A stretch of 64,000 nucleotides of DNA from Isoetes taiwanensis (lineage: Eukaryota > Streptophyta > Lycopodiopsida > Isoetales > Isoetaceae). Where the stretch lies: positions 15,610,386-15,674,385 of the forward strand of contig JAJEKV010000003.1 in NCBI GenBank assembly GCA_021234155.1, written 5' to 3'. The notes beneath the pieces were generated by a model, which saw nothing but the letters and a program-made list of their open reading frames with translations, did not search any database and was not told where the DNA came from. Below are positions 9,101-54,082 of the stretch, one piece after another (position 1 is the stretch's first letter; each line of letters begins with the position of its first letter). Both the position numbers and the translations under genes were made by a program.

Positions 9101-9706
9101 ATAACAGAATATGTCATAGCTTGTTCTTCAAACCTTGAAATCATTATGGAACGGAACATAAGCAGCCATTTAATACTGAGTAATCAAATAAGATTCATGT
9201 TCACCTATATTAAATCAATACTATGCAGATGGAACAAGCACAGCAGCATCGCAAAGCAAGCCTTGTTTCGCTTGTAGCTATGCCCTTGTCAGTTGAGATC
9301 CTATGACCTGATCTAGACAAAACTTATACGCAGCAGCACTTAAAGCTAACATATTTAGAAACTAGAAAGCTATCGGGGATTTCCTGATACGGATGGTTGT
9401 GCTCCTAGGGCTGACTAGTCTAGGCCAGTGCAGGCTGTTTGTTTTTCCTCGTGTCTTCAGCTGATTCCTGCTCTGTGAACTATAATGATGATTTGCGTTT
9501 AAGGAAATTTTCATTCATAACTTGGGAAAGACAAAACAACTTATACCTGTTTCTTTGGCCCATTTCTCGTTCATCTGCAAGTAACACTCCTTAAGAGCCC
9601 CAGAGAAAGCAGGCACGCTAGGAGACAGTTCAAAAGGGTATTTATCATAAAATTTGGCCAGAAAAGCTCTGGTGATTGGGACGAGTCCTTCAGTTGAAGC
9701 TGCCAT
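3161..9706 (-). CDS. 15-exon conserved plant protein with C-terminal GOLD-like domain
   Basis: Exons, in transcript order: 9547-9706, 8904-9031, 8701-8818, 7556-7712, 7404-7482, 7156-7196, 6967-7083, 6798-6881, 6671-6733, 6102-6147, 4891-4956, 3579-3626, 3442-3477, 3305-3379, 3161-3238. Every junction is GT-AG, every phase agrees, and the sum is 1296 nt, giving 431 residues and a TAA stop. The start is ATG (MAASTEG). The N-terminal two thirds is helical and charged (for example TYMPQDFRGSLIKQQRERSE). The last third has the beta-rich pattern of a GOLD/GOLD_2 domain: VETEGSFVAWDF, DVGFSVDF, GSYRLVWDNTYSTF, LRYKVDAIPP. From memory it matches a single-copy plant protein I cannot name. GOLD domains generally serve Golgi or vesicle trafficking, so a membrane-trafficking role is inference only. 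No stop or frameshift was found. A 174-bp MITE lies in intron 10. Confidence 0.88.
5377..5550. mobile_element. 174-bp MITE with 5-bp target duplication
   Basis: The left arm begins TGTTATGGCACAAGCTC and the right arm is its reverse complement. The arms are about 42 bp with two mismatches, around a core of about 85 bp that contains ATGATCAT. ATATG flanks both sides (5372-5376 and 5551-5555), giving a clean target-site duplication. It lies inside intron 10 of the GOLD gene, between exons ending at 6102 and starting at 4956. It has no coding capacity. The superfamily is unclear because a 5-bp duplication does not fit hAT, PIF/Harbinger or mariner elements. Confidence 0.85.
6588..6613 (-). other. 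G-run motif in intron 9 of the GOLD gene
   Basis: Runs of 12, 5 and 5 cytosines separated by AA on the plus strand become G runs on the transcribed (minus-sense) strand of the GOLD gene. They lie in the intron between the exons ending at 6671 and starting at 6147. The long run could supply two of the four tracts needed for a quadruplex in the pre-mRNA. Confidence 0.45.
7833..7892. repeat. 30-bp tandem duplication in an intron
   Basis: The stretch ATAGAAATACTGCATAACAA occurs at 7841 and again at 7871, as two adjacent 30-bp units. It is intronic in the GOLD gene (between exons 3 and 4). A second short tandem pair, built on AGTTTTGCCCATAATTTT, lies near 8531-8575 in the same intron. Confidence 0.7.
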
Positions 9707-10729
9707 TGATCAAGCAGCTCTGTGCTGCAAGTTACACACTTGTTGGCTTCCTGAAGCGCATATATGAGGATATTCTTCTTCGTATAAAGTCATGCCTCGG
9801 GATTGTTTTTGCAGCGGCAAACACGGGACACCCTTTTGCTAAATTGCCGGGCAATCCTGGTTATATACTCGGGTCCCGACCCTATATTTAAGTTTGCTTT
9901 GACCTTGTTATACTCCGGGCGTTAATATATTAGTTAAAAATAGGCCTAAGATAATTTAGTACGCGACATGGAAGTTGGGTTTCCACTTTTAGTTGAGTGT
10001 GCCTTGCCTTGTGGGCTTAAAAGCTACTGAACTTGGGTTGAGGCAAAAAATTTCAGCCCTGTTTTGGAAAATCAGCCCTCGCAAGATCCAACTTGCGTAG
10101 CTGACGCAACGCTGAATTTTGTTATCAGTGTTGACTCCGCTAGAAAGCCAGGCCTTCACTTCTCCATGTGAACCACCCATTAGGCGTATAAACCACCTAA
10201 CATAAACGTAAAAATCTTGCAAGCTATGCATGCCACATGGCAACATGCACAACCAGATGACCTACATAGCAATCCTTGTTGCATGCCAAACTGGAACCCG
10301 CAAGTCAACTTATGATGTGCCAAAGTAGAGGGGGTATTGGTACCATCAAGGCTGCGGTGGTGGCCACATAGGCTACCAACTAGCCATCTAAGGCTGCATG
10401 CGAAATTTAAAGCAGGATTTCATAGCAACAAAGCTTAACCAAGCTCAAACAGCCATGCAACTTATATTCCAGCAATAAAACTATAGATAATAAGAGGCAG
10501 CTAACAATGTTCATTCAATCTGTATTGAATTTATCAAAATTGATTTCATATGAATAGTAGACTTGAATATTTGCATAAATGAATAGATAAGGAGAATTTT
10601 GCAGTAGGATTCAAATCGATCATGGAACGGATGCTAAACAAACAATTATATTATAACTTGCATTCAAATAAATTTAATGAGTTAATCCAAACTTAGTTAC
10701 AAGACATTACAACTGCCATTGCCCCGAGG
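9707..10729. other. intergenic region upstream of the GOLD gene
   Basis: This holds the presumed promoter and 5' leader of the minus-strand GOLD gene. On that strand TATA-like words lie near 9758-9766 (CATATATG) and 9784-9795 (TTTATACG), but neither is decisive. Short frames here are unrecognisable. At about 10715-10745 the plus strand has a GGTTCAAG box like a tRNA-derived SINE B box, without a visible A box. Confidence 0.35.
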
Positions 10730-12463
10730 TCACGGGTTCAAGTACGACCAATCGGTCTTGTGGTAGAGACTATAAACCTGCCATATGTACTCGATAATCA
10801 CATGCAAAGCAGCTCCTAGTATACCGCGCCTAGGTAGTGGATTGGCTTCTATGTGATATGTAGAATAAAGTGATATATCTTTTTTCTCCAAGTCTTCTTC
10901 TTGAATTGCTCCCTCAGCCAAATGCTTGAGCATAACACTTTTGCATAATGCATCAGCTTCACCATTCTGCTCCCTTGGCACGTGACATAGCCTCCAAGTC
11001 TTGAAGTTTCTTAATTCTCCCATGGCTTGGTCCCTAAGTAAGATCATGTCCTCATTTTTGGCTTGGTACTCCCCCATTATTTGCCTGCATACAAGCTGAG
11101 AATCTCCAAAGATAACAATTTCATTAATATTTAAATTCTTTGCTTCTTGAAGGCCTGCTATCAGAGCCTTATATTCTGCCATATTTGAGGTTGCATTAGG
11201 AAAAAATTTGCCTACATTTGCAAGCAGCCTATTAGAAGAATCTTTAAGAATAGCAGCAGAGGAAGCCACACTCAATCTTTTAGAAACACCACCATCAAAC
11301 CATAAGTAAGCAAAATTTTCTTGTTTTGGCAAAGCTACTTGTATAGGGAATTCTGAGTTAGATATTAGATCATTTGTATTCAACTCAAACTCTCCACAAG
11401 GATTTGACAGCAGAATGTCTTCTTCTATGAAGTTTAAGGCTTCAAATTCACCTACTTTGTTGTAGAGTGTTACCTTTCTCTTACCATTGGAAATAGTGCA
11501 TTCTTCTTTTGACCAAACAGGCCTGGCATCAACTGTAGACAACCACTTCCTCCCCAAAAGCAAATCATGAATGTCTGATTTCTCCTCTATTCCTTCAAAA
11601 GCAACAACAACAAAGTTAGATGCAACAACTATTCCCTCTACATCAATTGGCACATTGCTAACTATGCCCATAGGGCTGATTTTTGTGTTTGAGAAGGATT
11701 TTAAAACCATTGGAGCTTTTTTGTTTCTCTCAAGGCCACACATTCTCATAATGTGATGGAGCATTACATTCAGAGGTGATCCTCCATCTAATAGGACCTT
11801 GGTCAAGATCTTCTTGCCCATTCTGGCAACACAAGTGAAGGCCCCTGGGTCATAATCTTCCTGAGTGAGCATGTATGTGCTCCTCAATATGATTGTTAGA
11901 GCAAACTCATCTTCTTTGGTCAAATTCAGTACCTTCTTCCTGTAGGATGGAGCTATCTTGAGCAGAGTCAACAAGTCAATACTGATTTTAGAATTCTTGA
12001 GCAAATACTCAAAATCCTCACTATCTTTATCTTTTCTCAAATATTTCTGAACAGGGGGAGGAGGTACAACCATGTTTTGCTCGATTTCTCTGTGTCTCAC
12101 GGCATTAGCATCCTCATTGGCTTGTGCTGGCTCTTTCTCCTTTGCATTGTTCATCCCTCTTGTGTGTACAGCCATGATCTCCTCCTGTTCTTCAATCTTC
12201 TGCACAAACCTGATAGAAGCATTTTGCTCATTGGATTTAGATTTTTCTTGCCTAGCAAAATACTCTTTCACACTACATCTGTCTTCATAATGCCACGGTT
12301 CTATTGCTATACCGACATTCCTTGGATGGGGACGCCCTTCCTCGCATCTCTTATTTATTTCGCCTCTTTTTCGTTTTCGTTCATCGGCGTTCTCTTGAGC
12401 TCCATTCATTTTTCCTCTTTGGCTCCACAAGTTTCTTCTATTCCCTCCACAATCGTCTTCCAT
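10730..12463 (-). CDS. uninterrupted Tat-type protease-RNase H frame without reverse transcriptase
   Basis: This is an ATG-initiated 577-codon open frame of Ty3/Gypsy Tat-lineage origin. The first 170 or so residues are charged (ADERKRKRGEINKR). An aspartic protease follows at about residues 200-330, with LLDGGSPLNVM (DGG where most elements have DSG or DTG) and DIHDLLLGRKWL. An archaeal-type RNase H follows at about 390-515, with LWFDGG, NMAEYKALIAGL, IFGDSQLV and a terminal NGEADAL supplying the acidic residues. The order matches the start of pol in the full element at 51604-63723, where RNase H precedes reverse transcriptase. Here the frame stops just where reverse transcriptase should begin, and the last 35 or so residues look like unrelated sequence. 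No gag zinc knuckles, integrase or LTRs are nearby. It is most simply a retroelement fragment, but the lack of any stop is unusual beside the decayed relative. Confidence 0.8.
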   Translation of the reverse strand: MEDDCGGNRRNLWSQRGKMNGAQENADERKRKRGEINKRCEEGRPHPRNVGIAIEPWHYEDRCSVKEYFARQEKSKSNEQNASIRFVQKIEEQEEIMAVHTRGMNNAKEKEPAQANEDANAVRHREIEQNMVVPPPPVQKYLRKDKDSEDFEYLLKNSKISIDLLTLLKIAPSYRKKVLNLTKEDEFALTIILRSTYMLTQEDYDPGAFTCVARMGKKILTKVLLDGGSPLNVMLHHIMRMCGLERNKKAPMVLKSFSNTKISPMGIVSNVPIDVEGIVVASNFVVVAFEGIEEKSDIHDLLLGRKWLSTVDARPVWSKEECTISNGKRKVTLYNKVGEFEALNFIEEDILLSNPCGEFELNTNDLISNSEFPIQVALPKQENFAYLWFDGGVSKRLSVASSAAILKDSSNRLLANVGKFFPNATSNMAEYKALIAGLQEAKNLNINEIVIFGDSQLVCRQIMGEYQAKNEDMILLRDQAMGELRNFKTWRLCHVPREQNGEADALCKSVMLKHLAEGAIQEEDLEKKDISLYSTYHIEANPLPRRGILGAALHVIIEYIWQVYSLYHKTDWSYLNP

Positions 12464-25659: not shown

Positions 25660-26254
25660 TTAGCTATCATTGTTAGCCATTCTTATAAGGAGGAAGAGAC
25701 TTTCCAGTTTCCAGATCAACAATTTTACTTCCACGTTTGGCATAATTCTTCCTGCTGAACCAACGGGTCCTGATCCTGCTGCCCCAACCCAGTAGATTCT
25801 GTCAATCCATATCCCTGTTTGAAACATCACGACAGAGATGACTGCGAAGGCATTAACATAGCTACTGACATAGGATATACAATGCCTGACTAAGAACAAT
25901 TGAGGTACCTGACTAAATTTTGGGACATGAGGATATTTTTCTATAAACGCGTCAATCGTGTCTTTTCCAAGGGGCGCAGCACCACTGCCCACAATTTTCA
26001 GAGAGCTAAGATCATACTTGTTTACCAAGGAATGCTTAAGAAGTGCAATTATTATTGGAGGCACAATGGGCAGATAAGTAACTTTGTACTTCTGAACTGC
26101 TTCCAGCATATCAACAAAATCAAACTGAGGCAGTATGACTATGGTGGCACCAGATCTCAACGTTTTGCAAGCCAGCCACATAAGGCCAGCAACATGAAAT
26201 AGGGGTACAAGAGCAAAGGCAACATCAGTATCCTCTGCCTCTTCTTCCTTTTCT
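25660..26254 (-). pseudogene. 4-coumarate:CoA ligase-like (acyl-activating enzyme) fragment
   Basis: On the minus strand, from an acceptor at about 26254, the frame encodes ALVPLFHVAGLMWLACKT, LRSGATIVILPQFD, KYKVTYLPIVPPIIIALLKH and SSLKIVGSGAAPLGKD, the middle of a plant 4CL or OPC-8:CoA ligase family enzyme. After KFSQ comes a GT donor and an intron of about 100 bp, then GYGLTESTG, the characteristic continuation. Two single-base frame breaks follow, before PVGSAGRIMPNVEVK and again before VDLETGKSLPPYKNG. The N-terminal AMP-binding P-loop exon and the C-terminal domain are absent. The retained intron shows capture at DNA level rather than through mRNA. It sits inside the CACTA element and is not expected to make an enzyme. 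Confidence 0.88.
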
Positions 26255-27708
26255 GAAATAGAAGAATCTTATTCATCCTTTATACCACCTATCATAGCAA
26301 CACCAGCAATATGTAAAGTACAGATGAAGAGAATAAAGTAACCGTAGATGCAAGACACTCTCTCATAGATGCAAGACTCTCATCCGGTTGACTTATTATT
26401 AAGTCTGGGCCCTGCATATAATACCTGAGATGGTAAAAACGTGTTGCCCTAGAAGTCCTAATCTATATGAAATGCAGAAATGGAGAGCCACAGATTTGCT
26501 AATACACTACAAAAAAGCTACCTCAATAAGCCTGGTAAATTTACCTCAGTCACGATGCAAGCTACACCTTGAAGTACAGGTTACACCTACAGGTACAGGT
26601 TGAACTCATTTTACGCTACACCCAGAAGTACAGGATTATCATCCACCTACAGGATTATCATCCACCTGCAGGATTAATATGCTCTGTTTGAGCTGGCTCA
26701 TTGGGCGTATGATTGCTGAACAGAACACTGATGTTTATTTAGAAGGAATGCAGAAGATTTTGATTGAAAGAAAGCTAATGCAAATTTAGATATTGATATG
26801 AGCGGACATGCGCCTGTCTTGAAGGCATTGGCTTAAAATCTTACCATATTCTTTTCTAATCTTGCCTTTAGGTCCCATTTAAGCCCAGCTTGCTTATAGT
26901 TATATTTGATTTTGATGAACGAAATCATCATGTGTAAGCATCCCTATTTCTTCTTCATCAATGTAAACAGGCTATCTCAAATATGTTCCATCGACATTGA
27001 GTGGAGGCAGACATTTTAATGGGCTGTATATGCTTGCAGAAGCTGTAGTTTCGTTGCTTGATCTGCAAAGGGAGGATGAATTGGCATGTTTAAGATCAGT
27101 TAACAATACAAGTGCTTTACATGTTCAAATTTCCTGTGACAAGTTTAAACTATGGTAAACTCCCTTGGGTGTATTACGGGAGCCCTTGACTTGGTTAGAC
27201 GATCCCGATCAAATCTGGATATAACAGGCAGTAACAGCAGCATATGACAGCACTGACGGCTTCCTAACAATATGGATAACAGTCTACATTACAGCAACGG
27301 CCGATGCTACATTACTTAGCAAAAGCTACAGTATTTTTATTCATCTCATTGTGACAATGATAGGGATATATTGAACATATCATTGCTTGCTTGAATATAC
27401 CTTTACTATTTTCCCTTGAATATGCCATTGCTTTTTAAGTTGTGGTTTTTTTTACAAGTTATGTTAAGAATAAGGTGTTAGCAATTGAGAAATGGTTTGG
27501 TCCTTGCACTACAGCTCCATAAAAGCAGTGGCTTACGTTTGTCAACAAGCCTCTTTGAGATGTTAATATCAAATTGAAACCATGTCAAAACCCACTGTTT
27601 CGAGTCATCTTAATTTCAATATTGGAACCATGTCAATACCATGTTCTTCATTGATGTTATCTCAATTACATTATTTCTTAAATTCTAATATTTTCTTACT
27701 TTTTCTAG
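26255..27708. other. CACTA interior, no confident gene
   Basis: This holds short imperfect repeats near 26560-26680 (AAGTACAGG, CTACAGGATTATCATCCACC twice) and otherwise unassigned sequence. A further captured exon might lie near 26975-27075 on the minus strand, after a TTTGCAG acceptor, but the similarity is too weak to call. The plus-strand gene starts at the end of this stretch, and an ATG at 27582 precedes its first supported exon. Confidence 0.35.
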
Positions 27709-29640: not shown

Positions 29641-30500
29641 TTTCAGTATTTGACGTCTCTTTTCAACTATGTACTATGGAATTTTCTACTTATGTTCTAT
29701 GGTTTCTGTAGACTTTATGCAATACTATGAATTTTGCTACTTATATTTTATGGTTTCTTGTTGCAATAGTAAAATATAATTAAAGTAGTTGTAGAACGTG
29801 TTTCAATGTTCCTGAGTTCATAAGATATAAATTTACAACTTAGATAGCCCTCCCTTTAATTTAATCAATGTGAAAAAAGGGATGTGGGATAATTGATTCG
29901 TGAATTGATGTATGGGCTGACTCATGGACTGATGCATGAGATGCCGCTATAACTAACACAAATAGTGCCTTCTATCCTGATATTAAAACCGACTCTAATT
30001 GTGACATATTGACTGACTCTAATTCTAACGCTATAGATATTCTATTCTGACGCTACTTCTGACCCTCAAACTGATGCTAATGCTGCCTAAAGTCTGACTC
30101 TAATTGTGATGATAGAGTTGACTCTAGTTCTAACACTATAAATGACTCTAATTGTGACTCTATACTGACTTTAATTGTGATAGTCGAGCTGACTCTAATT
30201 CTAACACTACCTTTGACTCTAATATTGACTCTAATGCTGATGGTAGAGATGTCTCTAATTCTAACGCTATGGTTGACTCTAATTCTAACAGTATGGTTGA
30301 CTCTAATGTTAACTCTAATGTTGATGGTAGAGATGTCTCTAATTCTAACACTATGGTTGACTCTAATCATGACTCTATGTCTGCTGCAAAACTGACGCTA
30401 AATTCTGACGCTAATGCTGACGTTTAAACGACAGAGCTTAGAGTCAGTTGTAGCGTCAGCCATAGTGTCATTTTAAGGACCTTTTTTCGATTTTTTCTGT
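29641..30500. repeat. CACTA right subterminal repeats
   Basis: From about 29890 to 30460, TGACTCTAATT, TCTAATTCTAACGCTA and close variants repeat at 10-25 bp spacing, matching the left-end motif. Open frames across it give Leu/Glu/Ser/Thr-rich peptides that merely translate the repeat. The terminal CACTA word itself is missing or altered. Confidence 0.7.
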
Positions 30501-31527
30501 CTAAGTTTATAACTAGGTTCGACTTTTTGCAGCCATGTCTTGCAGCCAGGTGATTCTAGCAACAACCAGATCCACGTGCACCCCTCAGCGTGGCGGTGGT
30601 CGAGTTTGAAGCTGCGTTGACGCAGCTTGCGGCAGGCTCCTGCAACTGCAAAAAATATCTTCCATGTGAACGTGCCATAAGACTGCAAGCAAACTTCATA
30701 TGAGGTATGCCCCCTATTTCCGAGTTTGTTTTCGAATCCCCTGCTTTTTCTTTGATTTCACGCAGTAGCAGCAGAAGTCCGTATATATCAAGCGAGATCG
30801 GGTTAATGTGGCCAGAAATTCCGTTATTGGCCACTCCATCCCCATCCAACCCATCGATCCGCTTTATCCCCATGGGTTTTCGCAGCCATGCCCCATTCAT
30901 GGGGCAGAGGGGGTGCCATGCTTCAGCAACCATGCATATCCCATGCTATGCCCCTTATGCATTAACTGCAACAATCCATCCGGTCTGCCAACCGTACCTG
31001 CCCAATTCACTTCAATGATTTCTGTTCTACACTCCTGTACGTGAAATGGATAGTTCGCGCAGGAATAAGGTCATTCAACCTCTTCAGCCTGTTGAAATGC
31101 CTTGCTCCCGAAGAAATTCCCTTCGGATCAAAAATCCTCTTCTACCCATTCCCCTTCCCTGCTACTACTTGAATCCGCCGGCTTGTAGGAGATGGCGGCC
31201 GACGTAATTGATCCCGGGGTGGAGAAGGTAAGCTGTTAATGGTTGGCTCTTTCAATTTGGGAAAACCCCGTAAGCAGCAAATTGTATCGAATTTCAGAGG
31301 CCCCATTCAAGATATTCCCCAATTCAGATCCTTCCCATTCAAGATCCTCCTCCAGGCCCGTTTTCAAGGAAGGATCTGATATAGAAAATCGAAGATCACC
31401 ATACAGTCGCAAAGAGTGGCTCTGTTGCTATTCCTTGCTGCTATATTCCAACAAACAGAGTTTCAGACTTCATCACTGGGGAGCAGAATTATCCAGGGTT
31501 TTAAGAAGATCGTGAGGTCAGTGATTG
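30501..31527. other. unassigned region with possible host exon
   Basis: Plus-strand frames at 30707-31044 are rich in Pro, Cys and Ser. An ATG at 31048 opens a 53-codon frame (MDSSRRNKVIQPLQP...). Another ATG at 31192 opens MAADVIDPGVEK, followed directly by a good donor (GTAAGC). One of these may be a first exon, but they are in different frames and I cannot link either to a downstream exon with confidence. Confidence 0.3.
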
Positions 31528-31875
31528 TTAATGTGGCCATAACCCAACTCTTAAATTTGGCGTGGGGTGGTACTGATGGTAAGTTTAGGAAAGGGAGGTA
31601 GTGATTTTGAACTGAGTGATGGTTAATGTGGCCATAGTCTGTTGCCTCAGGCATTGGGTGGTTTAATAAGTGGTTAATGTGGCCTTTGGGTGGTTAATGT
31701 AGCCTTTAGTAGTGGTTAATGTGGCCATACTTAGTGCAGGGCCCTAAGTGCAATTTAATTTGGCAAAGGGAGGTGGTGGTCTATGTGGCCTTTAGTGGTT
31801 AATGTGGCCCTATTTAATGCAAGTTAGTTAATGGTGCCTTAGGCCTTAGGTGGTGCTGGTTTGTTAATGTATATA
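31528..31875 (-). repeat. array 1 of the GGCCACATTAA motif (inverted orientation)
   Basis: About eight irregularly spaced copies of TTAATGTGGCC, the reverse complement of the motif that forms arrays 2 and 3. Spacing is 20-60 bp rather than tight. It lies directly before the SWIM-finger coding stretch. Confidence 0.8.
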
Positions 31876-31921
31876 TGTTTGAATGTTTCACATAGTAATT
31901 GAAGTTTGGTTTTTTTGTTTT

Positions 31922-32900
31922 AGCTACCACTGTGGCTATGGGCCAAAAGATCTCCGTAAGCAACCTCGTGAAGTAAAGCACAAGACAAAGCTAGAGGTTT
32001 CGAAGCACGCCTTGAGAGGTAGGAGGATTGACTGGTTGATCTACATGCTCACTTGTAGATTGGAAACACACCTTCTCTATGACAGGTTCAAGAAGGATGA
32101 GGGTTTCAAAGTGAATAAGAGACAGAGCACATAGTTGAGACAGCAATTATAGGGGCACGTGTCATTCCTGATGAGGCTGTTAGATGGTTGAACTTCAAAG
32201 ACGGGAGGGCAGAAGTGTGGAGTCAAAATATGGATGCATGGGATGCCAGCCGAGAGGCCGTGCCCTACCTTGTGGATGTTGCCCATGAGCATTGGTCATC
32301 TTGTGACTGCCCTTGGGGTATGAAAGGCAACATATACAAACACCAGGTCAAAGTGATCCAAATGATGGCCAAGTACAGTGAGGAGGACATTTTAAGGGTT
32401 TGTGGAACATTGCATGGTTCTCAAGCTGGCGGTTTAGAGAACTGAGGGCATTTGGAGAGGCATACGATGATGGTTTTCTTGATAACAGGGCACCATCCAG
32501 TCCAGAGGATACTTGCACATTGGTACAAGGGTTGGAGGATGACAATGGTGAGGAGAAGATTGTACATGAGGATGGCATTGGTGAGGAGAAGATTTCCCCC
32601 ACCACAAGAATTGAGAGTAGCATAAATGCCAGCATGACCCGCATTAGGGAGACCATATCTAGTAGCCCACAGGTTGCATTGGAGGCGGATTTCCTGCTAC
32701 GGGAGCTTAGTTTGAAGTTGGAGAGACTGACAACTTCCAAGTTAGACACTGTTGCTGCACCCAGTCTATCCATTGTGGAGGACTTCAATGGAAAAACATT
32801 GGTGAGGCCAGTTCCATTCGTGGAGTGTCGGAAGAGGCGAAAGAAGCTTGTTGATTCTAGTGTGTTTTCGCGAGAGTGTGAAGGGCACCTTCAAGAGTGA
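31922..32900 (+). pseudogene. C-terminal part of a SWIM zinc-finger, transposase-derived protein
   Basis: An exon-like start follows a TTTTAG acceptor at 31921. The first frame gives HALRGRRIDWLIYMLTCRLE. After a frame change near 32125 comes IPDEAVRWLNFKDGRAEVW and then CDCPWGMKGNIYKHQVKV, the SWIM pattern CxC...(C)xH in which the third Cys is Tyr. After a second frame change near 32400 a Ser/Glu-rich tail runs to 32898. From memory the layout resembles the C-terminus of plant SWIM zinc-finger proteins that descend from transposases (MULE-like). The catalytic N-terminal part is absent. With two frame breaks and a lost zinc ligand it is probably non-functional, unless the breaks are short introns. 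It is flanked by arrays 1 and 2 in opposite orientations. Confidence 0.55.
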
Positions 32901-32920
32901 AGGATGTGGCATATGTTCCA

Positions 32921-33590
32921 TGTCCACATTAATCCTTGGCCACATAAACTCATTTTGTTCAAAGTGTTAGCTTTTCTTTTAAAGTGTTACCATGATTTAA
33001 AGTGTTACCATGACCACATTGATCCATGGCTACATTAATAATGGCCACATTAACCTATGGCCACATTAAAACATGGCCACATCAACCCATGGCCACATTA
33101 AACCATTTTGGTTAATGTGGCCACATTAACCCATGGCCACATTAAACCATTTTGGTTAATGTGGCCACATTAAACCATGGCCACATTAAACCATGGCCAC
33201 ATTAAGCCATTTTGGTCACATTAACCTATGGCCACATTAACCTATGGCCACATTAACCTATGACCACATTAACCCAAGGCCACACTAACCACTATAGCCA
33301 CATTGACCTATGGCCACATTAACCTATGGCCACATTAACCCAAGGCCACACTAACCACTATGGCCACATTAACTTATGGCCACATTAATCTAGGGCAACA
33401 TTAACCCATGGCCACATTAAACCATTTGGGTTAATATGGCCACATTAAACCATGGCCACATTAAGCCATGGCCACATTAAGCCATTTTGGTCACATTAAC
33501 CTATGGTCACATTAATCCATCGCCATATTAATCCATAGCCACATTAACCTATGGCCACATTAACCTATAGCCACATTAACCTATGGTCTA
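32921..33590 (+). repeat. array 2 of the GGCCACATTAACC motif
   Basis: Dozens of near-tandem units of about 16 bp, consensus CTATGGCCACATTAAC. Most are in one orientation. At two places (33111 and 33153) a reversed unit abuts a forward one, creating a palindrome of GGTTAATGTGG with its exact reverse complement. Confidence 0.9.
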
Positions 33591-34196
33591 GGGTAGGTAA
33601 ATGTGGCTATCTTGGTGGGTGGCAGTTGCTCTCAAATAATGTTGCATTCAAGGTGCATTCAATAGTGAACCAGATTCAATCCGAGCTGAGGATTCGTGAG
33701 CAGACAAATATGGAGCCGGTGCTTACAAGTAAGGCTACATTTGTTGCAGTTTCCACGGCCTCTAGACTTTCTAAAGTATTTTAGCAGTTTCTTATTTTTT
33801 GGATGCTGTAAATTGGTAAGGAGCTGTGGAAAAGTTTGAACGAGATGGAATCCCCCGAAAACACCCTAACCCAGATGAGGAACTGGACTGGGAGGCTCTG
33901 TATAGCCTCATGAAGAAGGTTAAGAAATACATGATTGGTGAGTGGGCAATGAAGCTTCTGCTGGAGACCAGTGGGTTGACTCGCGGGATGAGGGTTCGTC
34001 TTGAAGAGATGCGCCAAGTCTGGAGGCACCACAAGAAAAGCACAATCAGATACTGGATGGAACAGTACTGTGGCCCGATATACTCGACATGCAGTTTTGG
34101 TTCAAAGGAGATGATGAGGTGGAGGACTTCACAACGGAAACCATTGATGATGCTCGTGAGCAGTACAAAGAGTTGTTCTGTTGAACATTTTGTTTA
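33591..34196 (+). other. unrecognised coding-like stretch between arrays
   Basis: A plus-strand frame to 33783 ends a short peptide (NNVAFKVHSIVNQIQSELRI). A second frame at 33826-34196 begins MEKFERDGIPRKHPNPDEEL and continues with a charged helical region (EWAMKLLLETSGLTRGMRVR, MRQVWRHHKKSTIRYW). The two may be exons or frameshifted parts of one protein. I recognise no family. Composition is unlike the AT-rich flanks and argues for real coding origin. Confidence 0.35.
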
Positions 34197-34244
34197 GTGT
34201 GCACGTTAATCCAGTGGTCAATGTGGCCTCAAGTAAGAAAGGTT

Positions 34245-34470
34245 AATGTGACCATTCACATTGGCAAGACTTTTAATCTGTCAAAATCTGTTGGTAAGAC
34301 TTTTAATCTGTCAAAATATGTCACATGTTTTATCTGTCACATGTTTTATCTGTCACATGTTTTATCTTACACACAGAAAATCAAAATCAGTTGGCAAGAC
34401 TTTTAATCTGTCAAAATCTGTCACATGCTTTATCTGTCACATGTTTTATCTTATACACAGAAAATCAAAT
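34245..34470. repeat. composite short tandem repeat
   Basis: GGCAAGACTTTTAATCTGTC recurs (34264, 34292 with a T, 34393), alternating with TTTATCTGTCACATG units (four or more copies) and ACACAGAAAATCAAA. The larger block of about 110 bp is itself duplicated. Frames through it are repeat artefacts. Confidence 0.75.
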
Positions 34471-35234
34471 GTTACCATCCAATGTGTTTTCAGAAAATTG
34501 TATGGACATGAAATCAGTGGCTTTCAGCAAAGCAAATGCTACCTACTTCTTGAGCTTTCCCTTGCCTTTCCTAGCATTGCTTCTGGCTGCTTTCTTTGTG
34601 CTTACTAACGTCTCCTGCAATCTGCCCAACACAACACTGTAGGTCTGCCTGCAATTTGCAACCTGCACCTTGCTAAACCAGTCTGGACTGACCTGCAGTT
34701 GTGAAGAAGTCAATGAAGCGCAATTCAAGACAAAAGATTGACTGCTTCTATGGCTTACCTCACGAGCTTCCTTTGTGGAATCATTGGCAATGAAGTCCTC
34801 AATGAATCTTCGTGCACATAGAATTGTGTATATACCACAATCTAAACCATTATCCTATTCAGGATTGCGCATTTCAACCATTGTTATTGAGAGCCAGTCA
34901 GGAAACGTAGGGCCCCAGAACCCATGAACCTGCTGTATGAACCTGTAATATGACAGCACAACCTGCTGTATGAACCTGTTGTATGAACCTGTAATTAGAT
35001 TAAAAAAAACAGAACACAAAAATGATGACTTACTCTGCCAAATGGGTTATGACTCCAGCAGAATGCCAGTTTCGAAGCGAGTCGAAGTGAAGCAAACTGG
35101 GGCAGCTTGTTCCAACAGAATAGCAAATGTCTACATCTCCACAGTAGACAAACAAACTCCAATGGCAACTACAGCAATAATGCAAGAAATAAGATCACGT
35201 TCAAATTTAAAACAGAACATTTAAGCAAACTGAC

Positions 35235-36622
35235 TTACTTGGCACATACTGGCAGCAAGTAGAACAGCAGGTCTGAGCTCGGTTTGGGAGGAAACATTTT
35301 CTTCCACAAGGTATCTACATGCCTCAGACATAGGCCGAATAGAGCTGGATGAAAGAATTGGTGGTACTTACGAGACTCCACAGGTATGAAGTGAGACAGA
35401 ATCCTGTATTTTGGGGGCAATTAGCATTGTATACACAATAAAAAATACTGCAGCCAAAGGAACAGTGAACTTACATAAAATAAGACCCGACCGACTCCTG
35501 TGTAAGTCTTCAACCTTTTGCAAGAAATCTGGACTGAGCACAAAATCAGCTTCTAAGGTCAGGACGGTTCTATGGCTTCCCTGTTGGCTTCTTGGGCTAT
35601 CATCAACAAGATGAACATGCATTTGGCGTAGTGGGGAGGCCGGATCAGCCACAGTAGAATCCTCAGCTGCTTCCACCCAGGAGGTCTTAATTGGGCGTTG
35701 ATGCTCAACCCGGCTGCCTCTGCTGAAAGCTTGGTCACAGGAGTTCCAGGGTTCGGATCTGCATCTTCCTCTGCTCCATCTTCACTAGAATCTGACCCAT
35801 CATGTGATGGACTGTCGAAATACCATGTCTTCTCCAAAAGTTCAGACTGCAGCTCATCCATGCAGGATCTGATATTGTCATCCAACTCCCTCTCATGCCA
35901 TTGTTCTTCTGTGCAATCAACATCATAGGCCTCTTTGATATTCTTCTTGTACAGAGCTATCTTACTGTTCTTGGATCTGTCCCAATCCAAAGCCCTCCTT
36001 TGCACATAATCATCGCATATCTCTTGACCTCGAGCTCCTTCTCTCTGCTATCGGGCATGTCCACAAGGAGGGCATATGCAATTGCTATGGCATCTGTCTG
36101 TGCCCTTCCACCTGTGAACCGGATCCATCCTGTACTTCTAAACATATTTGCTCAGGTCCTGGCCTGGCCTTCTCTTATGCTTAGTCTCAGCCTGCAATCT
36201 CCTACCTCCACAACCAGCCCATGCCTTCTTTTCAAATGCTCCTCCAGTTCCATTCCACCAACAATCCTCAGAGAGACAACACCATTTGCTTCTCTTCTTA
36301 CTGTAAAAAAAAAAACCCTTTCCCGAGCCTGATCATCAACCTCGGAATCTGCTTGCATGTGTTGTTGGGCCTCCACTTTCCCAGCAGGACCACGCCTTGC
36401 CTTCTTGAGCTTCCTCAGAGAAGCCGGTTGCTTAGAATCGACCTCAGCACATGCTGCTCTACCCGATTCCCTTAAATCCTTCACTGTCACTGATAGCTCT
36501 TCCTGTGTCGGTAAAAAAGGCTCGTCTGCATCTGATCCCTGGGCCGAAGGCGATCGATCCGATCCACTACCCTCGCTTAGAGACATGTCTTCACCACCAG
36601 AGTGACTGATCGAACTCGCCAT
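35235..36622 (-). CDS. unrecognised acidic/charged protein gene, broken or spliced
   Basis: The ATG is at 36622 and the first frame of 156 codons runs to 36152: a Ser/Glu/Asp-rich start (SLSEGSGSDRSPSAQG), a basic patch (LRKLKKARRGPAGK) and a folded-looking segment (VVSLRIVGGMELEEHLKRRH). Coding continues in other frames: GWIRFTGGRAQTDAIAIAYA (to about 35990), then WDRSKNSKIALYKKNIKEAY and an acidic tract (to 35700), then VLTLEADFVLSPDFLQKVED (to about 35440). The junctions may be short introns or indels. An ATG with a clean upstream leader suggests a true 5' end. I recognise no domain. It lies in the unit bounded by arrays 2 and 3 and runs opposite to its neighbours. Treat it as a hypothetical gene of a possible mobile element. 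Confidence 0.4.
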
Positions 36623-36780
36623 AGCACTGTTTCGGTTTCAAGCGTCAGAAATCAGAGTTCTTTTCCCCACATTGTACGAGCCCTCCACGTGTCGCGTGGA
36701 AATTGGTTCGGGCATAGGCATAGATTGCCTTGGTTTTGGCCCCCCAAAAAGTATTGCCTAATCAATCATGGCTTATAGGA

Positions 36781-37771
36781 GGCCACATTAACCACCCGGG
36801 TCACATGGTTGGCCAGATTAACCAAACATTTGCATGGCCACATTAACCACTTTGACATTGGTAGAATATTATTAGAACTACATTAATAGAATAGCACTAG
36901 TAGACTATGGCCAGAATAATCATAAAAGGCTATGGCCACATTAAACAAATCAATTCATGTCCACATTAACCCATGGTTGTCCCATGTCCATATTAAGCCA
37001 TGTCCACATTAACCCCATGGCCACATAAACCCAAGGCCACATTAACCCATGGCCACATTAACTCCAAGGTCACATTAAACCATGGACACATTAACTTATG
37101 GCCACATAAACCCAATGCCACATTAAACCATGGACACATTAACCTATGGCCACATTATATAAGCCAAGGCCACATTAACCTATGGCCACATTCACATAAA
37201 CCCATGGCCACATTAACTCATGGCCAGATTAACCCTTGGCCACATTAAGCCATGTCCACATTAAACCATGCCCACATTAACCCTTGGCCACATAAATCCA
37301 AAGCCACATTAACCCTTGGCCACATTAACCCATGTCTACATTAACCCATGGGCACATAAACCCATGTCCACATTAACCCATGTCCAACCTGCCATGGCCA
37401 CATTAACCTGTGGCCACATTAATCCAAGGCCACATTAACCTTGGCCACATTTAAACCATGTCCACATTAACCCTTAGCCACATAAACCCAAGGCCACATT
37501 AACCCATGTCCACATTAACATGTGTCCACATTAACCCAAGGCCACATAAACCCATGTCAACATTAACCCATGTCCAACCTAAGAAAAGTGTTACCATCAT
37601 TTATGTTTTATTCTATGGTTGTCCCATGTCCACATTAACCCTATGGCCACATTAACCCTTGGCCACATTAAGCCATGTCCACATTAACCCTTGGCCACAT
37701 TAAGCCATGCCCACATTAACCCAAAGCCACGTTAAGCCAAGGCCATATTAACCCATGGTCCACATTAACCG
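36781..37771 (+). repeat. array 3 of the GGCCACATTAACC motif
   Basis: About 1 kb of near-tandem units, consensus CATGGCCACATTAACC, with variants GTCCACATTAACC and GGCCACATAAACC, all in the same orientation. It begins about 160 bp upstream of the minus-strand gene's ATG and ends about 30 bp before the plus-strand frame at 37802. It therefore occupies the whole divergent intergenic space and may act as a shared promoter or protein-binding region. Confidence 0.92.
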
Positions 37772-37801
37772 TTGCAACATTGTCTCGATGCGCAGGGTAG
37801 G

Positions 37802-38485
37802 ATGCCTGAGAGTAGTAAAGATGGTGGGCTAAGGATTAAGAGAGATGGATCTGCAATTGAGGAGGTTAGTTGGGGTGGGGCAAAGCTTAGATCTTTCAGT
37901 GTCTTAGTTGGTGGACAGGGTAGATATGATAGTGGGAACAACTTTGGTTTAGATTCAGAGTATTGTGATGCAGGTGGATTGCCTGACAATGGGCGGAAGG
38001 CCAGCTCTGTAAGCAGAGATTTACTAGTGATCTATGAGGATCGTGGTCCATTTCTCTTTCCATATTCTGCAATAGAGAAATGCAGGATGCAAGGTGGTAG
38101 AGGTGGAGGGGGCAAGTCTGATGTTAGAGGGAGTGCACGTGGGCGAGGCAGGGGTTCATGTGGGAGAGGGAGACGTAAGAATTTGTGAGCCAGGTGATGA
38201 ACGTTTGCAGGAAGATCATGTAGAAGAAGCTGAGGGAGAGGGAATCATATATATCACGAGGGGTAGAGGTGCAAAATGAAGGCGAGGGAGAGGAAGGAGG
38301 AGTCGCGGTATGCTTGAAGAGCACCTGGGTGCAGACATTGCAGGAGGGGCAGGAGAAGAGGTTGTGGACATCTCTTCAGTTCTGGGTGTGTTGGTCACAA
38401 TTGTGTTCGGAGGTGCGGATGTACCCGTTTGTAATGCCTTATTGAACGAGGCGGTTAGCACTGATATTATGGACGGCCCAAGATG
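37802..38485 (+). CDS. Gly/Arg-rich protein frame adjoining array 3
   Basis: The ATG is at 37802 (an acceptor-like GCGCAG precedes it at 37789-37794). The N-terminal 85 or so residues look folded (SWGGAKLRSFSVLVGGQGRY, LLVIYEDRGPFLFPYSAIEK). They are followed by an RGG-type basic stretch (GGRGGGGKSD, ARGRGRGSCGRGRRK), typical of RNA- or DNA-binding tails, and a stop at 38188. Coding character seems to resume in shifted frames to about 38485 (VVDISSVLGVLVTIVFGGAD), so a frame break near 38185 is possible. No known family is recognised. It is the rightmost frame of the array-containing block. Confidence 0.4.
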
Positions 38486-40598
38486 ATGAAAACATATTTT
38501 TTCTTCTGATGTCATAAAATGTAAACGCGCCTTCACCTATGCAAGCGCTTCTCCATCTGCTCTCAAATAACAAAAGGTGTTTCTATCAAAAGGATTTTTC
38601 TAATATGCTTCACCACTAATGAAAGAAGGAGAAAGCTTGAACAACACCAGCTATGGCATTTCTAGGTGTTTTGTAGTCTTGTTTGTAATCCATGTTTTAC
38701 TACTATAGGCTTTTTTGAGAGCGTAAAGGCAAAATGATGCCAATAAACCTGGAAGTAAGACAACATAAGGTACTTACCTACAATAGCCTGGCCCCGACAA
38801 AGGAAAATAAATGAAATTATAAAACTTGCCCGTGCAATATTATTTCATTTAAAGCATAGCATAAGCTTGAAAAACTGTGATTCAAGAACTTTCATCCTAT
38901 ATGCAACTTCATCATAAAAATGGACAATCTAAATCCCTAAATGAGTTGGAGAAATCCTCTATTAATGATCGTGGCCTCTATAAAAGCGTATGAGTCATGC
39001 ACCTTTGCCAAGTGCACTAACAATATTTGCTGAGGACATTCCATCACATCTTCTTCATATCCATGGTTGTCTCCAAGAGGTTCTATAATATTCTAGAACC
39101 TACATGCATGCACAATACGGCACGATCTCGTCCATTAGAGTGGCGCGATCTTGACCATTGGCCTAGATATATATAGAGATGCCTCCTTCTTGTCGAACCA
39201 TTCCTGTTTAATGCCAGTCTTGAGCCTTCTAGGCATCTCTCTCGTATTCATGCTTGCCTTCGGGCTATTGTATTCTTGTTTCTTCATCATATATCATATT
39301 CTTTGCTAACCTTGATGTATTTCTTCTGTATTCTTCGCGTATTTTCCTTGTTTTCGCGTAGGTTCATGACATGGGTAGCTCTACAATTCTCGACCTCCTC
39401 AGTTTTATTTTCGCTTGCATCTCCACAACCCTGGCTGTTTACTATTCTTTTGAACAATTAACTTTCTTTCTTGCTCCTATCTGTTGCAAGGCTTTTTGGT
39501 GCTTTTTCATTTCATGTTGCTCCCAAAAACTCAACCAATTAACTTTCTCATTTTTTTTTATGTAGACAGTATGCTATCGCAAAAGTTAAGAGGTACCATG
39601 CCTCTCCAAGCATGTAGCTTTCCAGTTATCTGTTTATTCAACATCACTACCTCTTGGTATTGGTATGGGTTGAGATTCTTTCATATGAAATGAAAATATT
39701 CCAAGACATTGAAACAATGACATTAAAATTAAATTACAAATGAAATTGAATCCACAGATTATATAATGCACTTGTAGCATGTATGTTTTGTACTCCCCTC
39801 CTTCCCCCCCCCCAACAAAAAAAAAAATAAAACCAACCCCACTCCCACTGACTTCAACTCATTTGGTGAAGCATACTACTCAACATATTTGGAAGTTGTC
39901 TGTACTCTATAAGTATATCCGACAACGTTGTCATCTAGTTTCAAATCCATTTGCACAATGAAGCTTTCTACTGTATTTTCTCCTAAATCCGGCAGCAAGA
40001 CGAGGGAGAGTTTCGGGAGAGGGAAAGAGTTTTTGAGGGAGAGAATTTGCTTAATCAATCTACCATCATTATAACTACCTCTTCCATAACTTTTAGCCCA
40101 TACTATCATGGACCTATGCATGGTCATTACACCTACTAAAACACATCCATGCACTACAAATGTGGCGTAAAGTTGTGGTGAAAAAATGCATGATATTGAT
40201 CCACTTCAACGTGCTTTTATTCAAATGTGTACCTCTGCAAGACTATACAACCATTTTTTTAATGATAGAACTGCATATGTATTTCTGTGCCAAGATAGTA
40301 CCAATTTTTTAGATTACTTCAACTTCAAGGTAATTCAGTAACTATGTGGCATTGTTATCTATCAGAAGTCTATAGTCATCATGTTGTCATTATATCATAT
40401 GGTAATTAGTTTCTTTTCTTTACCTTAGGACTGCTATATTTAGTGTAGATGCCATAAGGTTTGCTATTAGAGCCTACACGACTAATTGACATTGATCAAG
40501 AAATGGTGGTTTCTAAAAATGTACTTATGACAAATGATGGACAAGAAAGGGAGAATACGAAAATCTGCCTCGGTTTCTACATGTATGCATATGTGCTC
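38486..40598. other. no gene recognised
   Basis: AT-rich sequence with scattered short frames lacking motifs. Low-complexity runs include a C run then an A run at about 39804-39829. TATA-like and T-rich stretches give some frames a hydrophobic look (39371-39565), which I do not take as coding. Confidence 0.45.
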
Positions 40599-41470
40599 CT
40601 ACACATTCCATCTAGCCAGCCATTGTGGTCTCTTTTTCCTCCAGCAGGCCTTGAGGCATTGCGGCCCCATTGCCATGATATAAGCTAGATTAGGGAGACG
40701 AGCATCATCCATATTGACCACCTTCTGAAAATAGACAATGTGGCGATCAAGGGCCGCCCTCTGAAGAGGCAAGAAACCCGTTTCCTGCAACATAATTTGA
40801 TATGGGACTGTGGACTTCACCCCCAGTGCTCGTACCCAGAAGGTTTTCTGCACCTGCTCCAAGTCATTCCACGTAGTAAGGGACACCATTGGACCCCATA
40901 CTTCGACTCCGTATAAAAAGACAGGCTCCTTGAACAAGTGTGACTGATGGCCCAATCATATAGCTCCGCTCTGTGACCATTGTTCTGCATTGCATATAGT
41001 GCCTTCCAGCACGCCGTCACTCGTAGCCGTATGGATGTATCCCAGTGCATAGTAGAAGGAAACTCTACTCCCAAATATTGGTACGTGAATGCCATTTCCA
41101 CGTTTTGCCCCAGTAACTAAAGGATGAGGCTCTCGGTTGACGTGAGGATGATATGAGGACCACCTTAGCCTTGGCCAGGTTGACGTGCATATCAGTCACC
41201 TGGCAGAATGTGTCCAGAGCATCGAGATAGCACTGCATGTCTGCTGGAATGTAAGCTAGAGGTCCACATCATCAGCATATATTAACTGCCTGATGATCCA
41301 TTGCAGAAAATGAGCTCCCTCGCGCCCATTGTCAGCAAGCCAGCTCTCCAACTGATCAATGTAAAGCCCAAACAACATTGGAGAGAGAGGGCATCCATGG
41401 CAGACCTCGATACTACTATCGAATGGTTGGCTTGTTAGCTGCAACTAACCCGAGCATGTCTCATATAACC
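40599..41470 (-). pseudogene. LINE reverse transcriptase, 3' part, decayed
   Basis: Minus-strand pieces in several frames. CHGCPLSPMLFGLYIDQLES with IYADDVDL (the reverse transcriptase YADD motif) lies at 41256-41444. FTYQYLGVEFPSTMHWDTSI lies at 40817-41101. LFKEPVFLYGVEVWGPMVSL and the downstream conserved C-terminal region of plant LINEs lie at 40599-40955. The 5' portion is missing, and an LTR begins about 30 bp beyond the last recognisable codons, as if the LTR element inserted into the LINE. Frameshifts preclude function. It belongs to the same broad family as the plus-strand LINE at 49820-51300. Confidence 0.85.
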
Positions 41471-41497
41471 CGTTACATTGTATTCTGCAGCTCTACA

Positions 41498-42085
41498 GTG
41501 TGACGTTCCAGCACAGTATACGGTCCCAGGATGTATACTGTACTGCCTCGTCACGCGTACACGCCACCCCGACTGACGTGTACGCCGACGTGTAGCCAAG
41601 CAGGTAGCACCCTAGGGGGCAACTTGCAAGGTATGTACATTTATTTATGTGCACATTTACCCATGTGCACATTTATCTAGGTACACATTTTCCCATGTGG
41701 AACATTTTATGCTATCTAGTTATTAAAGGCAAGTGGGCCACACCCAATTATCTCACATGCTTAAAGGGATAATGGGAAACCCTAGCCCTAACCCTTTGTC
41801 TATATAGGTTAAGGAAACCCTAACTTGCCATTTTTGTTCATGCCATTTTAGGGCTCTGTTTCACTTGCTCCAAGAGTCAAACCCGACTCCCAGACTCTGT
41901 CTGAGCGATCTAGCTCATTAGTTTTCCTTTCTAGCTTCATCTTCTAGCCGTTCAGCAGGATGGTCGAGTTCAGGGCAGGAGGAGCGAGCCAAGGATCAGG
42001 TATTTAGTCAATTTAATAGCCTAAACCGTCTCCCAGTCATTGAATCAGTAGGTTTAGCCTATTAAATTGCCCATAGCAGCTAACA
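41498..42085 (+). mobile_element. 5' LTR of an LTR retrotransposon with tRNA-iMet primer site
   Basis: The probable LTR runs from TGTGACGTTCC at 41498 to GCAGCTAACA at 42085 (TGT...ACA ends). It is followed after one base by TGGTATCAGAGC at 42087-42098, the complement of the 3' end of plant initiator methionine tRNA. The left border is inferred from the TG and the loss of LINE similarity. No second LTR is in the window, so the element is truncated, or its 3' half has decayed or been deleted. Confidence 0.7.
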
Positions 42086-51603: not shown

Positions 51604-54082
51604 TGTTGCCCCTTTTTGGGCAACATGGACCATCATGATACCTAGAGTTTCAAGATTGGAAGATACTTGTCAGAGTTTGGAAGACTTGTGGTTTCTTTTG
51701 AGGTTTCATCTTAAGTTACTTTCCTATTACTCATATGGTAAGAGTTAGTGTTATTTTGATCCTGCTAGAGTTTGGAAGAAATTGGCTCAAGTTTGGAAGA
51801 CCCTTGGGATCTTGGTTGTATAGCCTAATTCTTTCCTTTGAGGAAATTTTCTAGTTACATTCTTATTTCTTGAAGACCAGGCAAAGGATATAGCAAGCTA
51901 TACAAGGAGTTATAAGCATGTTGCTCATATTCACTCATATGGAGCTAAATGGAGTTGCACCAATGGTTTGGAAGTCACACCTATGAAGATGTCACTTTAA
52001 AGGTGAATTTTGCTCTTGTTTAGGCCTTTGAAGATTGGAAGACCTTTTTAGAAGTTTGGAAGACCCTAGGGCCTTGAGCAAAGTTATGAGGTATGATTTG
52101 AGCTTTGGAGATAAGATCATGTGCTACTGGGGGTTTCCATCCTTTATCCATTTCATCCATTCCATATCCACTTTCCTTTCATCTTTTTATACCCCATTTC
52201 CACCTTGTCATGCCTTCTTTCATTACTTCACTACCTATATTTTTATTGGCCTCACCTCCACTTGTGAATTGCTCTCAAGAGATCATGAAAAACTTCAAGA
52301 GCAAGGAGGCTTGAATTTTACTTTCATCTTATTTCCCTAAATCCTGCCATAGCCTTTTTTTTCCTATCTTTTCACCCTCTTCCTATGATTTTTTCACCAT
52401 TCCCAAGGTTGAAAACTCATTGACCATGGTCAAAATGGGCAAAATTTCAAGTATCTCAATTTGACTTGAAAACACTCTAGATTTGGAGCTTGGCAAAAAA
52501 TAGCTATGTTGGCCTTTCCAAAATTCAAAAAAGACCTTGGAAAATTCCTCAAATATTATTTCTTGGGATGCGTGCCAAAAAAATAAAAAAAAGTAGCAAA
52601 AAAAAACCTATTCTAGCCTATCTACCCTATTTTTCTATTTTCCACCTCAGCCTAAATTCCACCTCAGCCCCCATTGGTCCACGTGGCGGCCGAGGCGGGG
52701 CCTCCGAAACACGAGCCGGCATTAACCCTTCAAGGTGGCACGCAAATTCAACATGCTGACTCGGATTATTCAATTTATATCCTTATCTTCCAGAATCATT
52801 CAGGCCTGTGGGATATATCGAGCTTTGAAAAAAAACCCTAAACTTCTGAGCCTGCTAAATCTGGCAAATTCGTGCCCAAATCTGATTGAATCCCGCCCTT
52901 TTGCTCCCGAAATCATCTCCTGAACCTTTTCCGAGACCTCTGGAACCCCCTGTGGCACTTGATTCAAGGGAATTTGCTCAAATTAAGCCTAAAATCACTC
53001 AACCGAGCTGGTTTTTGGGAGGGACAGTTTTTATCCAAGAATGGACATCATTTTCTTCACCCCCTGAGATATACCTCTCGTGATCCGGGCGCTTTCTATA
53101 TCTTTGATATTTTATTGATCTGTTTCTACTCCAAATTCAGCTAATCCCGTGTTCGAGATTGAAGATTGATCAGATTTTGATCGAAGACCGACTGTGTTGT
53201 GACCTACCTGACACCAAAACTTCTACTGCAATTCAAAATTCCTTATTACTTTCTCTTCCAGACAATTTCTAGATTATCAGAAGCTTACTATGCTTTGGGA
53301 GTTACTCTCAAGCATTATTTTGGATATTTTCTCCTGAGATTTCTGAACTCCTGTGATATTTTATGATCTTAATGCATATTCTTTGCCCGAAAAATAGTGT
53401 TGCCATCTTCTCAAGTTATAAATCTGTAATGCCCTGTCTAGACCAATAGAAATCAGATATTTTTAAGTTGAATCCCAAATAAATAGTTGTGTCCCAGCCT
53501 TAAATAGGATTGAGTATTGTTTATATGCAAAGAAAACAAAGAAAAAATAGTTTTTTCATATCTGTCACAAACTCATGGCATGAATTCAAGACTTTGGTCC
53601 GTCTCAAGAAATATCATAGTGTTTGCTTGTCAAGAAAACCCTATGCACGTGATTTAGAGTTCATTCTGAGGTCATTTGCACAAATTCCAACTCAAAATTC
53701 ATCACCAAACTCCATTTGCAAATTTTGGCTCTCTGTCTTGGCATTGACCAATTTTTGACTGAACTTTGACATTGATTTTCTTGGTCTTCCCCTATCCAAA
53801 TCGAGACGGACTTTCATCAAAAGAGTTCCCTCTACTTGTCTATAACTCATACCAAAAACCAAAACTCAAAAATCTTAAAGGGTGTGACTGCAAGATTGAT
53901 TTTTGTTCTGACAGTTTTTTCTGCTTCAGGGACTGTAGTGATTTTGACAAAACCAGCATTTGAAATTGAGTTCTTTTGCTTTATATGATTAAGGATTGAT
54001 CACCCTAAGTGATCCGAGGTCCCACCCAGTTTGTTTACACTTCCTTTGAGGTTAGGCTAAAATTCCGGTTTTTAGGCTAACA
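51604..54082 (+). repeat. 5' LTR, 2479 bp
   Basis: It starts TGTTGCCC, T-rich loop, GGGCAACA: an 8-bp perfect stem at the very end of the LTR. Most of its length matches the 3' LTR. Differences occur in small clusters, mainly indels, such as around 52679-52745 and 53090-53155. Open frames inside (52035-52340 and others) are present in both LTRs but have no motif. Confidence 0.92.

Follow-up and report, generated by a model that had tools for sequence, protein, structure and literature searches.

The stretch of Isoetes taiwanensis DNA analysed here (the window; 64,000 nucleotides, C1034:15610386-15674385, of a 1.66-Gb genome) contains a block in which coding stretches alternate with long arrays of a short motif. 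To judge from its sequence, this block is what remains of a Mutator-like element (MULE), a DNA transposon; the copy is decayed and non-autonomous, and it belongs to a family that has long terminal inverted repeats (TIRs) and is flanked by target-site duplications (TSDs). The motif is present both in the TIR and in the arrays, and related families of the same genome have arrays of their own motif variants. On the basis of these patterns and of an analogy with VANC in Arabidopsis VANDAL elements, we consider it close to an even call that a protein encoded by the element docks on the arrays and opposes host silencing.

Exact copies of TTAATGTGGCC occur 43 times on the two strands of the window, all of them within 30803-37703, as against a mean of 0.05 and a maximum of 1 in 100 dinucleotide shuffles. 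The motif arrays pointed out in the first-pass annotation are therefore real; the 16 bp that it gave for the motif stand as the period, whereas the conserved core is only 14 bp long (GGTTAATGTGGCCA). Array 1 (31528-31809, plus strand), with 5 exact copies of TTAATGTGGCC, precedes the coding sequence of the transposase and may lie inside a 5' intron; other copies of the element have the motif at a comparable position, about 0.85-1.2 kb from the left end. Array 2 (32921-33590, minus strand) follows the transposase. Tandem Repeats Finder places its tandem part, 36 units with a 16-bp period, at 33008-33586; thinner copies begin at about 32921, and two plus-strand copies are found within it, at 33112 and 33156. 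For array 3 (36781-37770, minus strand) the same program gives a tandem part of 48 units, likewise with a 16-bp period, at 36981-37770, and thinner copies begin at 36781. All three arrays stand where they had been placed, but a copy at 30803, in the left TIR, had been left out.

A DNA search of the genome with window positions 30800-38600 as query gave at least 347 matches, and the best 40 of 1,141 candidates were scored. A left border is common to the window copy and the copies C930 and C932 (window 30773-30774), and a right border is present in C930 and C932. The ends of the element are inverted repeats beginning GGAAGTCCGTATAT, and the TIR has the form GG...CCGTATAT...CGGGAT followed by the motif. 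With up to 3 mismatches, a 35-place TIR pattern matches 283 places in the genome (153 + 130) and its reversed control none. From these data 22 TIR pairs were taken, 20 of them from small pieces, plus C930 and C932. A TSD directly outside GGAA...TTCC is present in 20 pairs; 19 are exact, at 9-10 bp, including one pair with CTCC for TTCC, and the TSD of C1029:3693140 matches in 8 of 9 bases. None was found in the other two pairs, C932 and C1029:17400992. The spacing of the pairs ranges from 2.6 to 28 kb, about half being 12.3-13.4 kb, and alignments of opposite-end TIRs in the window family extend over about 212-276 bp. The family thus combines a transposase domain, a TSD within 8-11 bp and terminal inverted repeats, by which MULEs are recognized. 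The suspicion in the first-pass annotation that the block is a large DNA transposon is borne out by the common borders, TIRs and TSDs of other copies, and the motif that it had expected at the ends lies inside the TIR, from base 29. When other blocks with the array are sought in the genome and aligned, shared borders and shared proteins are recovered. For the analyses below the family is represented by 14 copies, of which 11 have both ends (including L063); in C912 and in the window copy just the left end is present, and C196 has neither; C1028:13709001-13729000, where no TIR was seen, was left out.

The left TIR of the window copy (30773-31037, plus strand, about 265 bp) has A as the first base of GGAA. 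It is placed by a TIR pattern match at C1034:15641162 (window 30777), by the start of the homology between copies and by an inverted match to the 3' end of copy L063. One copy of the core lies in it at 30801-30814, starting at TIR base 29. On the right, family homology reaches its limit at 37771-37781, with matches to several copies ending at about 37781; no right TIR was found in the window, and none of six other copies matches 37766-42000. The loss of the right end explains why neither a TIR pair nor a TSD can be seen in the window. The absence of both, which had been held against a transposon, is thus correct as regards the right TIR of the window, whereas both exist in other copies. The last coding stretch that had been counted with the block (37769-38485) was tried as a further gene of the element and rejected as foreign, as it has no match in the six copies. 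It is a Gly/Arg-rich coding-like stretch abutting the broken right end, and its sole listed match is C1081:4806052-4806715 (92% identity). A short way to the left of the element, 30094-30413 is taken up by tandem repeats (24-84 bp) around TGACTCTAATTCTAAC.

Long copies share a common order: TIR with motif, array 1, transposase, array 2, a small gene termed geneX, a Ulp1-like gene (ULP) on the opposite strand, array 3, further coding-like stretches and TIR. The transposase is seen in copy C930 as a 749-amino-acid open frame that matches the MULE domain PF10551 (2.8e-19, 69.8 bits, cut-off 27.6); a SWIM match in the same protein (0.0032) is below cut-off. Its ratio of nonsynonymous to synonymous substitution rates (dN/dS) is 0.2-0.64 in 12 comparisons. 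In the window a 3' part with a SWIM-like finger is present (31982-32900, plus strand); it is frameshifted and the catalytic core is absent, with the junction at 31982. GeneX encodes a small basic protein (MAITRS...; 6088-6444 of the C932 element and 5905-6246 of the C1089 element), with a dN/dS of 0.1-0.65 (8 comparisons, one stop in one of them) and no Pfam match. It is also matched in C1075, a copy without ULP. A further small coding-like stretch, 'gene 3' (33666-34207, plus strand), has mixed dN/dS values (0.15-0.93) and no Pfam match over cut-off, and its location is not the same in the window copy and in C932. Another stretch, 'gene 5', was rejected as a constrained protein, the dN/dS of 0.39-1.05 in its two pieces being unconvincing. 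The element also contains a second 16-bp repeat, TGTCACATGTTTTATC, at 34319-34451, and beside it 30-bp repeats from 34261.

The Ulp1-like cysteine protease gene of the window (34543-36622, minus strand; multi-exon by eye) has an in-frame stop and broken frames in this copy. It is convergent to the transposase gene, with the middle array between them; the divergent promoter that had been surmised is not borne out. The joined 3' exons match PF02902 (Peptidase_C48) over cut-off (4.5e-7) and contain the residues HW / FDS / DCG; PDB matches, to ULP2 and SENP8, are weak (0.005). The C-terminal exon has a dN/dS of 0.2-0.62 in 10 comparisons, with stops in several. Inspection by eye shows a C-x4-C-x12-H-x4-H pattern in the N-terminal exon of the window family, C928 and C1033; in C1025 the last His is missing at that place; Pfam reports no finger in this exon. 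Of 60 transposase loci, 24 lie within 13 kb of one of the listed ULP exons, which in all 24 is downstream and on the opposite strand (chance about 0.08), a count for which 82 ULP places of 219 matches were used. The loci with such a nearby ULP include the relatives C1025, C1040, C997 and C900.

Motif sites avoid the genes almost entirely. In the 14 copies, with up to 2 mismatches, 1 site falls in coding-matched bases (tblastn matches to five element proteins) and 1,389 fall outside, that is, 0.02 as against 15.3 per kb. Furthermore, a 2,621-bp copy with a TSD has kept its TIRs, 26 exact motif copies and the 'gene 5' region; no transposase or ULP match was found in it.

Twelve related loci were fetched from the same genome, with transposases 47-75% identical to those of the window family. 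In 11 of them the transposase is followed, at a distance of at most about 1.4 kb, by the start of an array of the locus's own variant. C1050, the twelfth, has been truncated, and its homology to its sisters ends just after the transposase, which rules it out as an array-less relative. The variant motifs share a loose skeleton, GGTTnATnnGGnCA, and the exact window motif is absent from six relatives tested. The motif is GGTTAATCAGGACA in C1025, GGTTTATCCGGACA in C1075, GGTTTATCTGGACA in C1045 and C1019, GGT(T/A)AACCT(A/G)GACA in C1060 and C1033b, GGTGTTTCTGGCCA in C928, C974 and C1055b, GGTATTTCTGGCCA in C1040 and GGTTCAAACATGACA in C1033, the last being the poorest fit to the skeleton. Position-weight counts in ten relative arrays give 24-154 sites per locus, and 0-5 in reversed sequence; the sites of C1033 were counted by pattern only. 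Outer arrays that face each other, as described earlier for the window, are a property of the window family but not a general rule, which is ruled out by the other orientation of the downstream arrays in C1033 and C1040.

TIR pairs of 114-294 bp occur in four relatives (C1033, C928, C1025 and C1075). C1033 and C928 have 9-bp TSDs, the TSD of C1025, CCAGAACTT, was read off the flanking sequence, and C1075 has TIRs that are 99.6% identical, without a TSD. For C974 and C1050 no TIR pair was found, the left TIR being present in both, and no TIR was found in C1019 and C1033b. The motif starts at TIR base 29 in the window family as well as in nine relatives with the usual TIR form (C1025, C1075, C928, C974, C1055b, C1045, C1040, C1060 and C1050). 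A different form of it is present in the TIR of C1033. The TIRs also have a second motif copy, often degenerate, about 24 bases further on.

Motif, TIR and transposase vary together. In a tree of 18 transposases every multi-member motif class falls within one clade. The support is 100/99 for the clade of the window family and 100/100 for those of the three other classes; C1075 clusters with C1045 though its commonest motif variant differs by one base. The TIR motif differs from the array motif of the same locus by 1.44 bases on average and by 3.26 when permuted. Permutations reach the observed fit with a frequency of 5e-5 for 9 loci, 0.0012 for 7 and 0.017 for 5, in a test that left out C1033, C1019, C1033b and C1050. 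In 12 of 14 comparisons, made on the repeat units of seven motif groups, core positions are more strongly conserved than linker positions; the window family, in which the unit is almost wholly motif, was left out. Where the array consensus of the relatives reads TCTGG, TCAGG or CCTGG, the motif in the TIR has frequently retained a CpG (TCCGG, CCCGG, TTCGG), and the arrays of C1075 partly keep the CpG. It is possible that this difference arose by deamination or by selection.

In the mechanism that we propose, an element-encoded DNA-binding protein would read the motif in both TIR and arrays. Dense binding over the intergenic gaps would keep the promoters and ends of the element clear of host silencing, in the way VANC works in Arabidopsis VANDAL elements. 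Since the motif variants differ from family to family, the effect would be private to each. As the reader we slightly favour the transposase: the motif sits in the TIR, there are arrays even in clades for which no Ulp1 gene was found, the transposase is present in all clades (by choice of the search), and MURA, too, lowers TIR methylation (PMC10398659); the Ulp1 protein and the small basic geneX protein are the other candidates. More tentatively, these families may represent a TIR-bearing land-plant MULE clade with a sequence-specific anti-silencing system of an origin separate from VANC. One protein would then read TIR and arrays, and family identity would be rewritten by a few bases of GGTTnATnnGGnCA together with that protein.

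Several observations weigh against a docked anti-silencing protein. The TIR motifs of C1025 and C1045 equal the array motif of C1075 and not their own, that of C1040 is 4 bases off its array, and three of the nine loci of the TIR-array test are near-identical. Two of the 14 core/linker comparisons are tied, the anchor being its own reverse complement, and indels in the linker may depress linker conservation in this comparison. The observed/expected ratio of CpG is 0.31-0.51 in the 14 copies, and three parts of the window outside the element have 0.37-0.53; CpG content as a trace of lasting escape from methylation was rejected, as the 14 copies give no such sign. The complete C1075 copy has an array but no ULP; among the matches listed in two genome-wide searches there is none within 13 kb of C1075, C1045, C1019, C1060, C1050 or C1033b. 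The N-terminal part of ULP is weakly constrained (dN/dS 0.42-0.71 in 11 comparisons, stops in most). Finally, the VANC domain DUF1985 was found neither in the 500-amino-acid ULP exon (E<=1) nor in seven accessory pieces (E<=10), so that these profile searches gave no sign of DUF1985/VANC homology.

The arrays could also be extra transposase-binding sites for transposition only, in synapsis or titration, with no role in silencing. The motif at TIR base 29 in the window family and nine relatives agrees with this, as does the array retained by a non-autonomous copy. MURA binds a motif of about 32 bp in Mutator TIRs (PMC3310237), and subterminal tandem repeats of 9-15 bp occur in 10 of 12 long-TIR mosquito MULE families (PMC5225508). 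However, the majority of sites lie between genes in the interior of the element, kilobases away from its ends, C1075 having 95 of them in an internal block of about 4 kb, and we regard a role confined to transposition as rather unlikely. Less likely still, part of the TIR would have expanded in tandem by neutral processes, giving functionless arrays that were homogenized within families. Tandem repeats readily homogenize, coding sequence would exclude arrays anyway, and TIR and array consensus are 1-4 bases apart in eight of nine loci. Set against this are the conservation of core over linker, the start of all 11 arrays so close downstream of the transposase, and a skeleton mostly retained across families with transposases as divergent as those given above. 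A genome-wide satellite next to the coding stretches by chance, the outcome that the first-pass annotation had set against its own reading, is hardly credible: there are 360 dimer matches in the genome, and for 6 of 24 clusters the listings show neither a TIR nor a transposase in the vicinity (one of the six, C255, has ULP exons, which leaves five unassigned), but the other 18 lie inside or adjoin family copies, with a TIR or transposase within 16 kb, and the arrays occupy the same intervals in copies with TIRs and TSDs, so that common borders and TSDs rule out a free satellite. The clusters come from 100 of the 360 dimer places, 100 of the 283 TIR places were used, and two clusters share one element.

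Elsewhere in the window, 51673-54014 and 61333-63654 are direct copies about 9.65 kb apart, piecewise 91-100% identical, and the pair looks like the long terminal repeats (LTRs) of an LTR retrotransposon. A reading frame at 25660-26268 resembles, by eye, an AMP-binding (4CL-like) enzyme. Outside the window, contig C840 carries plastid psaA/psaB (6738-11097). The PDB chains that psaB matches best are 7ksq, 6l35 and 8htu (1383 bits; moss photosystem I), ahead of 9lut (1380) and 7wfd (1361; Arabidopsis); for a 476-amino-acid part of psaA the order is 9lut, 6zzx (a green alga) and 6l35. These matches hint, without proving it, at a land plant outside the flowering plants.

The element can be compared with several published systems. 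Maize MuDR carries mudrB rather than Ulp1, and it is not known to have internal motif arrays. Like the element described here, MuDR/MURA has a MULE transposase and long TIRs; its TIR contains a motif bound by the transposase (PMC3310237), and MURA lowers TIR methylation (PMC10398659). The mosquito Muta elements are also MULEs with short tandem repeats whose length depends on the family; Muta1, unlike the present element, has 9 repeats inside the TIR and is 3,198 bp long (PMC5225508).

Sequence-specific anti-silencing by transposons is best documented for the VANDAL elements of Arabidopsis. VANC21 binds a 9-base motif (YAGTATTAY) arrayed in introns and intergenic DNA of VANDAL21 and causes methylation loss (PMC5735166), and VANC6 acts through other motifs (PMC5735166; PMC10398659). 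Like the families described here, VANDAL21/Hiun and VANDAL6 are multigene MULEs with family-specific tandem motifs in noncoding DNA (introns, intergenic and terminal parts), and the motifs differ between related families (PMC5735166; PMC10398659). VANDALs mostly have no TIRs or degenerate ones, some members of the clade having TIRs (PMC6446971), whereas here the TIRs are long. Two further differences are that the Isoetes motif is also inside the TIR and that the family motifs share a loose skeleton. VANC has DUF1985, and none was found in the element here. In KI-MULEs the Ulp1 gene is likewise in reverse orientation to the mudrA transposase (PMC2528002); these elements are described as non-TIR. 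Some VANC genes carry a Ulp1 domain (KIU), and KIU elements are said to recognize their own motifs and lose methylation (PMC13317346). Unlike in KI-MULE/KIU, a C2H2-like finger can be seen by eye in the N-terminal part of the Isoetes ULP.

No description of this layout was found in the parts of the open-licence literature that were covered; its plan is not as new to plants as had been thought, VANDAL and KI-MULE elements of Arabidopsis being close to it. Several related families of a single genome have motif arrays of their own and long TIRs, and some also have a Ulp1 gene. This series permits a comparison of motif, TIR and protein, and with it the question of whether systems of this kind predate the eudicots or evolved repeatedly can be approached; the EMBO J 2022 paper on KIU reportedly refers to eudicots in its title. 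It also makes testable whether target choice lies with the transposase or with an accessory protein. By analogy, the closest parallel is with the VANDAL/VANC and KIU anti-silencing systems of Arabidopsis, from which the element differs in two features, its TIRs and DUF1985.

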